Program-made: the position numbers and the translations under genes
Notes under the pieces: generated by a model
The model's input: the letters and a program-made list of their open reading frames with translations, nothing else
Told to the model about the DNA's origin: nothing
Databases searched by the model: none
From: a candidate division Zixibacteria bacterium SM23_81
GTDB lineage: Bacteria > SM23-81
DNA length: 7,834 nucleotides
Assembly: GCA_001304015.1 (NCBI GenBank)
Contig: LJUY01000080.1
Span: 1 to 7,834, forward strand
Reading direction: 5' to 3'
In this document: positions 1 to 5,748 of the stretch, piece by piece
Layout: each line of letters opens with the position of its first letter
How positions within the stretch are numbered: position 1 is the stretch's first letter

Positions 1-354
1 GGTGAGAACACGGTTTGCTTAGTCGGGACAGCCAATGGCAACATACTGTGGTCTAAGGAGTTTCCATATCAAATAGATACCCGGGCGAGAGACTGGAGAT
101 GGATTACTCATTTGGATATGTCAGAGAATGGAAATCTTATTGCCATTATTACTACTTTGTACAAAAGAAGACCGGGAGGATATAAGGTTGTATATCCAAC
201 ACTTATCCTACTTGACAACAAGGGAGAAAAGATTTTTGAGCGAGAAATGCGTGATCAGCAAGTTGAGGTCTCTGTGAGACTGACCCCGGATGGGAGAGAA
301 GCGTACTTAGGTATGCCGAGGGGGTTAGCTAAGTTTAGTCTAAAACAGAAATAA
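1..354 (+). CDS. Unrecognised protein, C-terminal fragment (beta-propeller-like)
   Basis: Frame 1 is open from the first base of the window to a TAA at 352-354, giving 117 residues of the C-terminus of a longer protein; the true start lies upstream, and the internal ATG at 112 is not needed as a start. Visible features are alternating hydrophobic strands with short turns, such as GTANGNILWSKEF near the start, LILLDNKGEKIFE in the middle and LTPDGREAYLG near the end. The 'SxNGxLIA' and 'TPDGREAY' patterns resemble blades of WD40/PQQ/TolB-type beta-propellers. I do not recognise the family and assign no function. Codons are visibly AT-richer (tat, ata, aaa, tta) than in genes after 1360. The stop is followed at once by a strong SD and a 25-codon ORF. 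Confidence 0.6.
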   Translation, partial: GENTVCLVGTANGNILWSKEFPYQIDTRARDWRWITHLDMSENGNLIAIITTLYKRRPGGYKVVYPTLILLDNKGEKIFEREMRDQQVEVSVRLTPDGREAYLGMPRGLAKFSLKQK

Positions 355-821: not shown

Positions 822-895
822 GGGCCCATAGCTCAGCTGGTCAGAGCCACCGGCTCATAACCGGTCGGTCCCTGGTTCGAATCCAGGTGGGCCCA
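822..895 (+). tRNA. tRNA with CAU anticodon (elongator Met or Ile2)
   Basis: A complete 74-nt cloverleaf: acceptor GGGCCCA (822-828) pairs with TGGGCCC (888-894), with discriminator A at 895. The D arm is GCTC/GAGC, the anticodon stem ACCGG/CCGGT closes loop CTCATAA, and the T arm is CCTGG-TTCGAAT-CCAGG. The anticodon CAT lies at 856-858. The perfect first pair G1-C72 argues against initiator tRNA, which normally has a mismatch there. CAU can read AUG (elongator Met) or, after TilS adds lysidine, AUA (Ile2); sequence alone does not decide. The 3' CCA is not encoded (the next bases are CGC), so it must be added by the CCA-adding enzyme. Confidence 0.95.
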
Positions 896-960
896 CGCGA
901 ATAGCAGGTTAGGGCACGGGGAAATTCATCCTCTACTCATGATTGAACTTCATAAGTTAT

Positions 961-1034
961 GGGCGATTAGCTCAGTTGGCTAGAGCGCCACGCTCACATC
1001 GTGGAGGTCACAGGTTCGAGTCCTGTATCGCCCA
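961..1034 (+). tRNA. tRNA-Val (CAC)
   Basis: A complete 74-nt cloverleaf: acceptor GGGCGAT (961-967) pairs with ATCGCCC (1027-1033), with discriminator A at 1034. The D arm is GCTC/GAGC, the anticodon stem CCACG/CGTGG closes loop CTCACAT, and the T arm is ACAGG-TTCGAGT-CCTGT. The anticodon CAC at 995-997 reads the valine codon GUG. The gene lies 65 bp after the CAU tRNA and is probably in the same transcript, since no separate promoter is evident between them. CCA is not encoded (the next bases are CTC). Confidence 0.96.
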
Positions 1035-1232
1035 CTCAAATTTCTCACATTGGCGTCAGGTCACCAGAGGGCATTCCGCTGAGTAACCGCCATTTGTGTC
1101 CCTGATGAGGAGGAGGCTGCAGGGTTGAGGGGAGAGACTACAATTTGAGGGAAAGAGTTACTTGAAAGCGAGGGTGAACATCAACGAATTTCTTGTAGCT
1201 GACTCCGATATTTTATCGCGGCGAGACTTAAA
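1035..1232. other. tRNA 3' trailer, no convincing gene
   Basis: About 200 nt separate tRNA-Val from the terminator. A TTG-started frame from 1162 runs straight through the terminator hairpin and into the next gene, so I do not call it. An imperfect hairpin is visible at about 1047-1100: TGGC pairs with GCCA, and GGT/AC with GT/ACC across a C-A mismatch. It may be a processed trailer or an unnamed small RNA. Nothing here is recognised. Confidence 0.3.
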
Positions 1233-1350: not shown

Positions 1351-1355
1351 AAGGA
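1351..1355 (+). promoter_or_regulatory. Shine-Dalgarno deciding the zinc-ribbon gene start
   Basis: AAGGA ends 8 nt before ATG 1364. The in-frame ATG at 1355 overlaps this SD and has no good SD of its own, so 1364 is the better start. No strong promoter is visible in 1268-1350; TTTAAT at 1332-1337 is a possible -10 box, but no matching -35 was found. Confidence 0.5.
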
Positions 1356-1363
1356 TGTTGCCC

Positions 1364-2080
1364 ATGCGTGAAACCTTGAGCATGTTGACGAGGCTCCAGG
1401 AAATCGACAACACCTTAGACCAGCTGGCTCATTCCAAAGTTGACCTGCCTGGTGAGATAGAGATGCTCAAAGGGCAGGTTCAGGAACTTGAGGACGGCAT
1501 TGCCGAGGGTGAGACCAAGCTGAGCGAGTTGGAGAAAGAGAGGAGGCAGGAGGAGCTGGGATTGGAGATGGCCCAAGATAAGCTAAAAAAGTATCAGCAG
1601 CAGCTGTACAGGATCAAAACAAATCGCGAGTATGATGCCATCCAGGCAGAGATCGACGCCCAGAAGACCAAGATTTCCGAGTACGAAGAGAATATCCTGG
1701 ACCTCATGACCACCTCTGAGGAGCTCACCGAGACATTGCAGCAGCGTCGTGAAGAGCTGGATAACCTGAAGGCTGAGAATGCGCCCCAGTGGGAACGACT
1801 AGAGAAGGAGCTGTCCTCCATCGAGGACCGGATGGCCATCGAGCGAGATGAAAGGAAGAAAGTGACTGTCAGGCTGAAAAGAGGAGTACTGGCCGCCTAC
1901 GAGCGCATTAGGGTAGGGAAGAGCGGTCAGGCCATCGTGCCCATCCGCAAACGAGCCTGTGGGGGCTGTTTTACCACCCTGCCGCCCCAAACCATTCAGG
2001 AGGTGCGCAGGACCGACAGGATAATCACCTGTGAAAACTGCGGGAGGATTATCTATTGGGACGACAATTTAAAGAGCTAA
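1364..2080 (+). CDS. Coiled-coil protein with C-terminal C4 zinc ribbon (COG1579 type)
   Basis: From ATG 1364 the product has 238 residues. Roughly residues 10-175 form a long, charged, heptad-rich coiled coil full of Glu, Lys, Gln and Leu, with the segment YRIKTNREYDAIQAEI characteristic of this family. The C-terminus is a zinc ribbon with CGGC at 199-202 and CENC at 223-226, giving four cysteine ligands. Known relatives include Helicobacter HP0958/FlgZ and chlamydial CT398, which act as partners or chaperones of other proteins, including sigma-54 in some hosts; the role is otherwise poorly defined. Length and domain order are normal. The last 25 bp overlap the start of the RNase H fusion in another frame, so the two are probably translationally coupled. 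A function in nucleic-acid metabolism is only an inference from that neighbour. Confidence 0.9.
   Translation: MRETLSMLTRLQEIDNTLDQLAHSKVDLPGEIEMLKGQVQELEDGIAEGETKLSELEKERRQEELGLEMAQDKLKKYQQQLYRIKTNREYDAIQAEIDAQKTKISEYEENILDLMTTSEELTETLQQRREELDNLKAENAPQWERLEKELSSIEDRMAIERDERKKVTVRLKRGVLAAYERIRVGKSGQAIVPIRKRACGGCFTTLPPQTIQEVRRTDRIITCENCGRIIYWDDNLKS
2042..2047 (+). promoter_or_regulatory. Shine-Dalgarno for the TTG-started fusion gene
   Basis: GGGAGG lies inside the zinc-ribbon coding sequence, where it encodes part of the last zinc-ligand turn. It ends 8 nt before TTG 2056. This supports TTG as the start; no ATG or GTG in this frame precedes the essential RNase H aspartate (residue 13). Confidence 0.65.
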
Positions 2081-3438
2081 CGGCATTTATCGATGGATCA
2101 TCCTTGGGGAATCCGGGCCATGCCGGGGCTGGTATTCTTCTTCAAGACTCTGATCAAAAGGAAGTTGAGGCCCTGAGCATCTACTTGGGAGAGAGCACAA
2201 ATAATGCGGCCGAGTATCAGGCTCTCCTTCTCGCCTTGGAGAATGCCAGGGACTTTGGCGCCCGCCGACTGACCGTTTTTTCCGACAGTGAGCTTTTAGT
2301 CAACCAGATGAATGGCCGTTACCGAGTGAAGAATCCCGGGTTAAGAACTCACTTCAACAGGGTCAAGGAGCTTCAGAGGACTTTCGAGTTACTTGAGGTC
2401 CGCCATGTTTCCCGTGGGGAAAACCAAAGGGCGGACCGACTGGCACACCAGGCTGCATCTCGCAGAACATCCTCTCAAGGAAGGAAAGCCTCGACGACGG
2501 CGCCAAACAAACTGGTCGGAGGCGCTCTGTCCCTTAACGAGGTTTCTCTTCTGCCGAAGTGGTCCGATGTGCTTCCGGATCAGGTAAAAACGGAAACCGT
2601 GGTGGCTGAGAGCATTTGCCTGGGAGTTCCCCTCCTTGCTGCATCCACGGTCTCCCGAGTAACCGAGTCGTTCGCCGCCGCCGTGGCCCAAACGGGAGCA
2701 ATGGCCGTTCTCCGACCCAGCAGGTCTCCCCAAAAGCAGGCCGAGGCGGTCGAAAAAATCAAGGGTGCAAAGCCTAGGAAGCGGAGATCCAGCAAAGGCG
2801 ATGGGGGTACCGTGCCTTCCAGTTGCGATAAGCAAGGGAGATATCGAGTCGGAGTGGTCGTTCACCCTTCTGAAGACCTCCTGGATCACACCAGGACCTT
2901 ACTGCAAGCGGGGGCGGACCTGATAGTATTAGAGGCTTCTTTGGGTCATGATCCCGAGCTTATAGAGGGCATCACCAAAATCAAGGATAAATTTCCCGGT
3001 GTGCCTTTGATTGCCGGAGATGTCACTGATATCTCCGGAACCCGCCAGGTCCTGGAATCAGGAGCCGACGGCGTCAAGGTTGGGGCGCCCTTCATCATCG
3101 GGGTGAAGGTTCCCCTGTTCACAGCCATCCTGGATTGTGGCCGGGAGGTGGAAAAGCATGGCGGTACCCTGGTGGCCGATGTGGGCACCACAGAGCTGAT
3201 GGTGGCCTCCAGTCGGATCGCCAGGGCCATCGGGGCCGGGGCTCACGTCGCCTTTGCCAATCTTCAGCCCATAGGAAACATGAGTCAGGTTCAGATTCTG
3301 GCTGAAAGTCTGGACAATATGGTGGATGATTTGCGGATGATCATGTCCTGCTGCGGGGCCAGATCCATCGAGGGATTCCGCCAAGAGGCCAAATTCGTTA
3401 GGGTTCGAGGAGGAGGCGAAATTTCTTCTGTGGAATAA
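2056..3438 (+). CDS. RNase HI fused to a degenerate IMP-dehydrogenase-like barrel
   Basis: A single uninterrupted 460-codon frame starting at TTG 2056. Residues 6-135 are a type I RNase H, which cleaves RNA in RNA-DNA hybrids. All four catalytic acidic residues are visible: D13 in FIDGSS, E53 in NNAAEYQALLLAL, D77 in VFSDSELLVNQ and D127 in RGENQRADRLAHQAA. Residues about 153-450 follow the IMPDH/GMP-reductase barrel from end to end: LSLNEVSLLPKWSDVLP (158-174), AASTVSRVTE (195-204), LLQAGADLIVLEASLGH (282-298), PLIAGDVTD (317-325), GADGVKVG (336-343) and CGARSIEGFRQEAKFVRV (433-450). The CBS pair is absent and replaced by a short basic linker (237-262). The catalytic GSICTTR loop is missing (KVGAPFIIG instead), and the usual DGGI reads DVGTT, so IMPDH activity is unlikely. 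RNase H activity is well supported; the barrel's role is unknown (scaffold, ligand sensor or new chemistry). Confidence 0.88.
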   Translation: MGRQFKELTAFIDGSSLGNPGHAGAGILLQDSDQKEVEALSIYLGESTNNAAEYQALLLALENARDFGARRLTVFSDSELLVNQMNGRYRVKNPGLRTHFNRVKELQRTFELLEVRHVSRGENQRADRLAHQAASRRTSSQGRKASTTAPNKLVGGALSLNEVSLLPKWSDVLPDQVKTETVVAESICLGVPLLAASTVSRVTESFAAAVAQTGAMAVLRPSRSPQKQAEAVEKIKGAKPRKRRSSKGDGGTVPSSCDKQGRYRVGVVVHPSEDLLDHTRTLLQAGADLIVLEASLGHDPELIEGITKIKDKFPGVPLIAGDVTDISGTRQVLESGADGVKVGAPFIIGVKVPLFTAILDCGREVEKHGGTLVADVGTTELMVASSRIARAIGAGAHVAFANLQPIGNMSQVQILAESLDNMVDDLRMIMSCCGARSIEGFRQEAKFVRVRGGGEISSVE

Positions 3439-3598: not shown

Positions 3599-3985
3599 GT
3601 CTCCGCCAAAGCAGATCGGATGATCGCGGGTCCAAATCAAGGCCTGAGGAAAGTCCGAGCTCCACAGGGCAGGGTGCTGGATAACGTCCAGGCAGGGTGA
3701 CCTGACGGAAAGTGCCACAGAAAACATACCGCCTCGACTTTGGTTGGGGTAAGGGTGAAAAGGCGAGGTAAGAGCTCACCGCGGTCCAGGTGACTGGATC
3801 GGCAGGGCAAACCCCACCCGGAGCAAGACCAAATAGGGAAGGAGAGGTGACCCGCCTCGTTATCACTTCCGGGTAGGTCGCTCGAGGTGCGAGGTAACTC
3901 GCATCCCAGATAGATGATCATCGGAGGGGGGCCGCTGTGCCGCCCTCTACAGAACTCGGCTTACAGATCTGCTTTGGCGGAGCTT
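3599..3985 (+). ncRNA. rnpB: RNase P RNA, bacterial type A
   Basis: This is the catalytic RNA that, with protein RnpA, cuts 5' leaders from pre-tRNAs. All the conserved blocks appear in order: GAGGAAAGTCC (3646-3656, 5' strand of P4), CCACAGAAAACATACCG (3715-3731), GGTAAGAGCTCACC (3767-3780), GGCAGGGCAAACCCCACC ending in GAGCAAGACCAAATAGGG (3801-3838), GGGTAGGTCGCTCGAGG (3871-3887) and ACAGAACTCGGCTTAC (3949-3964, 3' strand of P4). The molecule is closed by a perfect 16-bp P1 helix, 3602-3617 with 3966-3981. The length, about 385 nt, is normal for type A. The exact ends are inferred from P1 and may be off by a few bases. The minus-strand open frames across this region are chance shadows. Confidence 0.97.
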
Positions 3986-3992
3986 GTTTTTT
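3966..3992 (+). terminator. Terminator-like T run after the rnpB P1 helix
   Basis: The 3' strand of the P1 helix (ending at 3981) is followed by GCTTG and T6 at 3987-3992. A GC-containing helix directly followed by T6 looks like an intrinsic terminator, except that its 5' arm is about 350 nt upstream, so a compact local hairpin is not formed. Some read-through into recJ is plausible because no separate recJ promoter is apparent. Confidence 0.4.
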
Positions 3993-4000
3993 CACCAGGA

Positions 4001-4007
4001 AAGGGGG
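4001..4007 (+). promoter_or_regulatory. Shine-Dalgarno deciding the recJ start
   Basis: AAGGGGG ends 10 nt before ATG 4018. The reading frame is open upstream to 3937, but a start there would lie inside the RNase P RNA and has no family support. Confidence 0.65.
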
Positions 4008-4017
4008 TTTCGAGTTC

Positions 4018-5748
4018 ATGAACATGCGCTGGCAGCTTGCCGACGAGCCCGATCCTCAACGGATCAAGGTGCTCTGCAAAGAACTCAGCATCTCCCCGAT
4101 CATCGCCCGCATCATGCTCAATCGCGGTATCGAGACGGTGGAGCAGGGTCGCGTTTTCCTCCACCCACGCCTCTGGGACCTGCACGACCCTTTTGACTTC
4201 AGGGATATGGAACTGGCTGTGGAGCGTATTGTGACGGCCCTGAAGAAAAAAGAAAGTATCATGATCTTCGGAGATTACGACGTGGATGGCATCACGGCGA
4301 CTTCTCTACTTTATCTCGTATTGACTCGTCTGGGAGCCAATGTTTCCTACTATATACCTCATCGGGTCAATGAGGGTTATGGTATTTCCGCAACGGGTAT
4401 CCAAGAGGCTGGGGAGCGCGGCGTCACTCTGATTATCTCTGTGGATTGTGGCATCACGGCCTTAGAAGAGGTAGCCCTGGCGAAATCTCGCGGCATCGAT
4501 TTTATCATCACCGACCACCATGAGATCCAAGACCAATTGCCGGAGGCGCATGCCATCTTGAATCCCAGATGGTCGGACGCCCACTACCCGGATAAAAATC
4601 TGGCTGGTGTGGGGGTGGCCTTCAAACTGGCTCAGGGTCTTTACCAACGGTTGGGATTTAACGATTCCGAACTGGAAACACACTTAGACCTAGTGGCTTT
4701 GGGGACAGCTGCAGACATCGTCCCCCTGGTGAGGGAAAACAGAATTCTGACCAAGTTCGGTCTAGAGCAGATAGCCAAAACGGATAAGGTCGGTCTCAGA
4801 TCTCTGGTAGAGATCACCGGTTTGTTGGGCGAAGAGATGAACACTGGGCGAGTGGTGTTCATTCTGGCCCCAAGAATTAACGCTGTAGGCCGGCTGGGAG
4901 ATGCCCAGCGTGCCATTACATTGTTAACCACCAGCCAAAGAGAACAGGGTCGCCAGGCCGCCCGCTTTTTGAACGACGTGAACAGACAGCGAAAGAACAT
5001 CGATGAGAGCATGTTTCTGGAAGCCCAGACCCTCATCGAGAAGACGGTGAATCTGGAGTCCGACCTGGCCATCGTCTTAGCCTCGGAGAAATGGCATCCC
5101 GGCGTCATCGGCATCGTGGCCTCTCGGGTCGTGGAGCAATATCATCGGCCCACTGTGCTCATTGCCCTGGAGGATAACCAAGGCAAGGGATCAGGACGGA
5201 GCATCGGTGGATTCAATCTCTATGAGGCCCTAGAGGAGTGTCAAGAACATCTGATCCGCTTTGGCGGCCACAAATATGCGGCCGGGTTGACTATTGAGTC
5301 TAAAGAAGTAGCGGCCTTTCGGGAAAAGTTGAACAGCATGGCTGCTGAAAAGCTGAGCTCCGAGAATCTCACACCTTCTTTGAAAATTGATGCACCCATC
5401 GATCTGGACCAAGTGGACGAGGACTTATTCAACACCTTGAGCGCCCTAGCTCCTTTTGGACCTCAAAATATGCGGCCGGTTCTTGTTGCCAGAGACCTTG
5501 AAGTAGTGGGGTATCCTAGGGTGGTGGGACAGAATCATCTCAAGTTCAAAGTGCGTCAGAACGAGAGAGTCCTTGAGGTCATCGCCTTCGAGATGGGTGG
5601 GCGCCTTGGCGATTTGCAGGTGGGCAAGCCCAACCTGAGCATAGCCTTTGTCTTAGAAGAGAACAGATGGCAGGGCAGAGCCAGCCTACAGATGCGAGCT
5701 AAAGATCTTCGGATCAAGGATCTAGGGACCTTCTCCTCATTTCGTTAA
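4018..5748 (+). CDS. recJ: Single-stranded-DNA-specific 5'-3' exonuclease RecJ
   Basis: From ATG 4018 the product has 576 residues, the usual RecJ length, and begins MNMRWQLADEP like family N-termini. RecJ degrades single-stranded DNA 5' to 3' in recombination, mismatch and base-excision repair, in the cytoplasm. It belongs to the DHH/DHHA1 phosphoesterases with a two-metal site. Visible motifs are DYDVDG (86-91), SVDCGIT (141-147), TDHHE (165-169, the DHH signature) and GGHKYAAG (416-423, the DHHA1 signature), with a C-terminal OB-like region after about 455. The next gene, cobO, starts 62 bp later. I see no terminator between them, so transcription may continue. No key residue is missing. 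Confidence 0.97.
   Translation: MNMRWQLADEPDPQRIKVLCKELSISPIIARIMLNRGIETVEQGRVFLHPRLWDLHDPFDFRDMELAVERIVTALKKKESIMIFGDYDVDGITATSLLYLVLTRLGANVSYYIPHRVNEGYGISATGIQEAGERGVTLIISVDCGITALEEVALAKSRGIDFIITDHHEIQDQLPEAHAILNPRWSDAHYPDKNLAGVGVAFKLAQGLYQRLGFNDSELETHLDLVALGTAADIVPLVRENRILTKFGLEQIAKTDKVGLRSLVEITGLLGEEMNTGRVVFILAPRINAVGRLGDAQRAITLLTTSQREQGRQAARFLNDVNRQRKNIDESMFLEAQTLIEKTVNLESDLAIVLASEKWHPGVIGIVASRVVEQYHRPTVLIALEDNQGKGSGRSIGGFNLYEALEECQEHLIRFGGHKYAAGLTIESKEVAAFREKLNSMAAEKLSSENLTPSLKIDAPIDLDQVDEDLFNTLSALAPFGPQNMRPVLVARDLEVVGYPRVVGQNHLKFKVRQNERVLEVIAFEMGGRLGDLQVGKPNLSIAFVLEENRWQGRASLQMRAKDLRIKDLGTFSSFR

Follow-up and report, generated by a model that had tools for sequence, protein, structure and literature searches.

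The nearest studied counterpart of the gene described here is the mycobacterial RNase HI-CobC fusion. It belongs to the actinobacterial RNase HI-CobC/acid phosphatase proteins (Rv2228c, MSMEG_4305; NF005567), in which an N-terminal RNase HI is followed by a variable linker and a second domain from small-molecule metabolism, a phosphatase of vitamin B12 synthesis. In MSMEG_4305, loss of the partner made little difference to growth, and RNase H function in vivo was largely independent of it; the authors considered the fusion to have been most probably fixed by drift (PMC7466739). RNase HI can also carry an appended non-catalytic domain, the dsRHbd, which is small and usually N-terminal, and which has been proposed to make up for a missing basic protrusion (PMC1950709). 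Here we describe a different partner, found in contig LJUY01000080.1 of the candidate division Zixibacteria bacterium SM23_81 (the window, 7,834 nucleotides), where one gene at 2056..3438 of the forward strand joins RNase HI to a barrel derived from IMP dehydrogenase (IMPDH). The protein resembles Rv2228c and MSMEG_4305 in its N-terminal RNase HI, its variable linker and the metabolic origin of its second domain, but that domain is an apparently dead IMPDH barrel rather than a phosphatase, and NF005567 matches only its RNase H part (residues 12-148; 111 bits, cut-off 326), leaving the phosphatase domain unmatched. With the dsRHbd enzymes it shares an appended non-catalytic domain on RNase HI, although Pfam listed no dsRHbd in it. 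No account of an RNase HI-IMPDH fusion was found in the literature searched, with subscription papers outside the search; this agrees with a preliminary description of the stretch, made from its letters alone, which held that known RNase H fusions do not use this partner.

The reading we favor, with a probability of roughly 0.55, is that the neighboring genes rnhA and guaB fused, that the guaB half lost catalysis, and that it persists as a folded pseudo-enzyme partner of RNase HI.

A single gene for RNase HI and an IMPDH-derived barrel

The fused gene is one open frame of 460 codons without interruption, with a TTG start and a TAA stop, preceded by a Shine-Dalgarno-like GGGAGG (2042..2047, forward strand) that ends 8 nt 5′ of the TTG. 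Pfam places RNase HI (residues 7-134) and IMPDH (PF00478, residues 158-398, E=5.5e-45) on the same chain, and the E-values exclude chance domain matches. The source phylum is represented by four genomes in the comparison set, and this form of the fusion, with a degenerate IMPDH half, was seen in two of them: the window's own (G000) and one from another genus of the same family (G001). An error of assembly or sequencing that joined two genes deserves mention, as the window is the entire 7.8-kb contig of a draft genome. It is nonetheless exceedingly improbable and was rejected as the source of the fusion: the independent G001 genome carries a full-length orthologue, 66% identical across residues 1-456, with the same architecture and the same deletions and with no gaps or stops, and the fusion is therefore real. 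The preliminary description thus saw the fusion correctly, both in its uninterrupted frame and in the IMPDH-type match of its C-terminal part. An internal start at the barrel was also considered and discarded. Codon 149 of the G001 gene (L008) is an ATG in frame, with AGGAGG at a distance, and the window lacks this ATG; the G001 codon may be a remnant of the start codon of guaB.

The RNase HI domain (residues 1-140; 2056..2475, forward strand) matches PF13456 (E=5e-20) and PF00075 (E=1.5e-13), both above cut-off. The catalytic acids D13, E53, D77, and D127, together with H117 of the loop, are present in both the G000 and G001 proteins, so the full domain with four catalytic acidic residues that had been described from the letters is confirmed. 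Structure prediction gives it a predicted local distance difference test score (pLDDT) above 90 over most of its length, and its ratio of nonsynonymous to synonymous substitution rates (dN/dS, G000 vs. G001) is 0.12-0.18. It is the sole RNase HI match in the window's genome, with one match per genome. Judged from its residues, this half should be active as a metal-dependent nuclease of RNA-DNA hybrids, and the basic handle of the E. coli type appears to be absent. A flexible linker follows (residues 140-154; 2473..2517, forward strand), with pLDDT below 50. It is fast-evolving, residues 137-156 being only 40% identical between G000 and G001.

Loss of the IMPDH active site

The barrel half (2518..3435, forward strand) is related to IMPDH. 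A profile-profile alignment (hhalign) against 21 canonical IMPDHs gave a probability of 100 and E=9e-50 over 309 columns, and the protein shares the barrel fold with canonical GuaB (TIGR01302). Unlike GuaB, it lacks the CBS domains, the catalytic Cys loop, the flap, and most invariant residues. In place of the CBS (Bateman) pair of about 120 residues there is a stump (residues 238-264; 2767..2847, forward strand). A short loop after strand 6 (GAPFIIG; 3082..3102, forward strand) marks the deletion of the eight-residue GPGSICTT with its catalytic Cys, a deletion present in both G000 and G001. The flap or finger region, between strand 8 and helix 8, has lost about 70 residues and survives as another stump (3265..3282, forward strand). 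Of 112 positions invariant in canonical IMPDHs, 31 are kept in both genomes, while 38 are changed and 43 deleted. The mobile flap and the IMP-binding motifs (SAAMDTVTE, DGG, YRGMGS) fare no better as a set: the flap is deleted, SAAMDTVTE is altered, and DGG has become DVG. With TIGR01302, the equivalog model for IMPDH, the barrel reaches 107.5 bits, below the cut-off of 481.5; with the GMP reductase model NF052358 it reaches 75 bits (cut-off 675), and it has no Cys loop. The catalytic deletions rule out an active IMPDH or GMP reductase as the identity of the barrel; since the CBS pair, Cys loop, and flap are deleted and most invariants lost, its residues indicate that it cannot perform IMPDH catalysis by the known mechanism. 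It had been called near-complete in the preliminary description, which holds for the fold, with its eight strands, but not for the enzyme.

Fold and selection

What remains is predicted to be a whole barrel. AlphaFold, run on an alignment of 55 sequences after a first run with 12 had given a pLDDT of 65, returned a mean pLDDT of 87.9 for the whole protein, with RNase HI confidently modeled, the linker disordered, and the barrel made up of all eight strands (residues 193-197, 216-219, 265-269, 289-293, 318-323, 339-342, 371-379, and 398-403). Between G000 and G001, the barrel has a dN/dS of 0.175-0.204 over about 300 codons, with dS above 1 and no stops or frameshifts. This ratio and the intact frame rule out pseudogene decay: the barrel is under purifying selection, and it is by selection that it has been kept.

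Probable origin by fusion of operon neighbors

The fusion lies in a conserved block with the order tRNA, tRNA, (nif3), COG1579, rnhA, guaB, rnpB, and its barrel half occupies the exact place of guaB. At the equivalent place, a genome of the same phylum but another family (G003, family f2) has separate genes for COG1579, rnhA (144 amino acids), and guaB (485 amino acids, motifs intact). The order COG1579-rnhA-guaB is found in G002 too, with only the start of guaB present at a contig edge. In-place fusion of the neighbors rnhA and guaB is the most economical history. In the IMPDH tree the window pair joins G003 without support, owing to the great length of the pair's branch (4.85 changes per column).

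In G003 the operonic guaB is the only IMPDH, while G000 and G001 each hold another, divergent IMPDH (contigs C57 and C247, respectively). The one in G000 is PRK07107-like (329 bits, cut-off 585), lies between purH and purF (G000:C57:6245-7603; L003 1471-2925), and retains GSICTT and the EEGVEG motif. It is probably the working IMPDH of the window's genome. Its presence fits a loss of catalysis in the fused half after the arrival of another enzyme, in an order of events that we infer: rnhA and guaB would have fused into one frame, the IMPDH reaction would probably have been taken over by the enzyme of the purH-IMPDH-purF cluster, and the fused guaB half would then have lost its CBS domains, catalytic-Cys loop, and flap, leaving a compact TIM barrel that is no longer an IMPDH but appears folded and selected.

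Full-length fusions in a second phylum

Surveys of about a thousand genomes for the two-domain architecture, a step that the preliminary description had proposed, found the G001 orthologue and, in two families of a second phylum, three full-length RNase HI-IMPDH fusions: G152 (624 amino acids), G389 (622 amino acids; same genus as G152, 89% identity), and G399 (626 amino acids; the other family, 58%). These fusions, like the derivation of the barrel from guaB and its loss of catalysis, had been overlooked in that description, which was otherwise right about the architecture. The window protein has the same organization, RNase HI and then IMPDH in frame after a COG1579 gene, and rnpB lies downstream in G152 and G399 as well. 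In contrast to the window's apparently dead IMPDH half, theirs is complete, with catalytic motifs intact and with CBS domains, Cys loop, and flap. The G152 and G399 proteins reach 623 and 627 bits with the equivalog model for IMPDH, whose cut-off is 481.5. In all three genomes there is no other IMPDH match at E<=1e-20 and no other RNase HI match than the fusion itself. Between G152 and G389, both halves are under purifying selection (0.09 and 0.07). Sister genomes (G006, G283, G400, and G402) have rnhA and guaB adjacent but separate.

A single clade of fusions that includes the second phylum was tried and rejected by the approximately unbiased (AU) test, with long branches in play (all fusions, p=0.002; window pair with G152/G389, p=0.011; window pair with G399, p=0.004). 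For one clade of the three full-length fusions the rejection was weaker (p=0.035), and the RNase HI tree is too weakly supported to decide on fusion origins. The simplest reading of these sequences is that the architecture probably arose repeatedly by fusion of the same neighbors, although one ancient fusion followed by repeated splits is a conceivable alternative. What appears to be the same fusion of two genes is seen here in two stages, one an intact and presumably bifunctional RNase HI-IMPDH, the other with a dead but retained metabolic half.

The recurrence also bears on a neutral reading, in which the fusion merely follows from gene order and brings no functional coupling, as was proposed for mycobacterial RNase HI-CobC. 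Besides the MSMEG_4305 precedent, where drift was favored by the authors (PMC7466739), the rapid evolution of the linker and the CBS stump (40-41% identity) would agree with neutrality. However, a useless dead barrel would not be expected to hold a dN/dS of about 0.2 over some 300 codons with dS above 1, and the architecture recurs in a second phylum. Recurrence and purifying selection together suggest more than drift, in contrast to the mycobacterial case, and we regard a neutral fusion as unlikely. Selection on the dead barrel argues against pure neutrality and leaves the selected property unspecified.

No further RNase HI-IMPDH fusion was found among 386 relatives of G000 and 386 relatives of G152 (overlapping sets), among viral contigs, plasmids, and phages surveyed, or in two other phyla (398 and 195 genomes) at E<=1e-198, a threshold that weaker or rearranged fusions would escape. 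Many IMPDH genes were seen in the IMG/VR viral contigs (L111-L190), most of the retained ones about 330-350 amino acids long, which is the size that an IMPDH has when it lacks CBS domains. In another genome (G037, family f36; L031 1459-2826), the gene after COG1579 encodes 455 amino acids with three tandem RNase HI-like domains, of which the first looks intact and the second and third are without some of the acidic positions. Two genomes of that family (G179 and G304) gave three RNase HI matches each in the survey.

Possible roles of the barrel

Because IMPDH barrels form tetramers, our first guess is that RNase HI is oligomeric here. By analogy, assembly or tethering seems the most likely mechanism: the dead barrel would be kept because it holds RNase HI in an IMPDH-like oligomer or attaches it to a partner. 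The preliminary description had offered a scaffold and ligand control as its two ideas, of which the scaffold seems the better one; the case for ligand control as known from classic IMPDHs is weakened, the nucleotide-sensing CBS/Bateman domains and the IMP-binding motifs being gone.

A ligand may nevertheless be involved in another way. On the old active-site face, several motifs absent from IMPDH are common to both genera (HPxEDLLD, LEASLGH, AGDVTD, GAPFI, ADVGT-ELMVASS, and DDLRMIMSCCGARS), and the loops of this face, the C-face, are 79% identical when the loop after strand 1 is set aside, vs. 62% for the helices (Fisher p=0.05; one genome pair). The barrel could thus be a sensor that binds a nucleotide or phosphate through new conserved residues on the old active face and tunes RNase HI. 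The conservation gap is borderline and comes from a single pair, the loop after strand 1 differs widely between the genera (17%), and the SAAMDTVTE and DGG motifs, Cys loop, and CBS sensor are all gone, so that we hold the sensor to be possible but doubtful. Somewhat more doubtful is a specific form of the idea, in which the barrel has been repurposed for ligand-gated control of RNase HI, purine status or a related metabolite would set how fast R-loops and primer RNA are removed, and the full-length fusions of the second phylum would link GTP synthesis to hybrid removal.

A direct contribution to substrate binding appears far less probable than either. The loop at the CBS stump is basic (9 K/R vs. 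2 D/E in residues 236-262) and could bind the hybrid, compensating for the absent handle or dsRHbd in the way proposed for the dsRHbd and a missing basic protrusion (PMC1950709), yet G001 does not keep this charge (7 K/R vs. 5 D/E), and the loop is only 41% identical.

Several points weigh against the favored reading of a guaB half that lost catalysis and persists as a folded partner of RNase HI. The match of the predicted barrel to IMPDH structures (7oj1_A, Z 35.6 over 293 residues, root-mean-square deviation 3.1; Foldseek E about 1e-24) is partly built in, the alignment being one of IMPDHs, and its informative part is the completeness of the barrel. The second IMPDH, on which the takeover of the reaction would depend, is divergent and below the PRK07107 cut-off. 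The C-face loop conservation slightly favors binding over a pure scaffold. The selection evidence is one genome pair, and the oligomer is a conjecture.

The question of why metabolic barrels persist as pseudo-enzymes becomes testable here, since the protein is small and a nuclease assay offers a simple read-out, and the fusions may represent a natural connection of the purine pathway to R-loop removal.

Other features of the locus

Two tRNA genes, tRNA-Met and tRNA-Val (822..1035, forward strand), form the conserved 5′ border of the block in the window. Two tRNA genes also precede the group in G003, tRNA pairs lie upstream in G152, G283, and G399, and such pairs were seen at L051, L087, L088, and L098. 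The gene immediately upstream of the fusion (1355..2080, forward strand) encodes a coiled-coil zinc-ribbon protein of the COG1579/CdsZ type (PF24481, 1e-16; PF02591, 7.5e-16; NF047363, E=3.9e-29, under that model's cut-off), and it shares its last 25 bases with the fusion gene. The same neighbor occurs in G001, G002, G003, G006, G152, G283, G389, G399, and G402. Downstream lies the RNase P RNA gene rnpB (3608..3979, forward strand; RF00010, 330 bits), at the same place in G001, G003, G152, and G399, followed by a recJ-like gene (4018..5748, forward strand) that is the 3′ neighbor in the window, G001, and G399. The program-called recJ frame begins at GTG 3937, within rnpB, and the ATG at 4018 is the likelier start (difference, window 3937-4017). 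At the other end of the contig, window 1-354 holds the 3′ part of an open frame; its start lies off the contig end, and it resembles a repeat-type protein.
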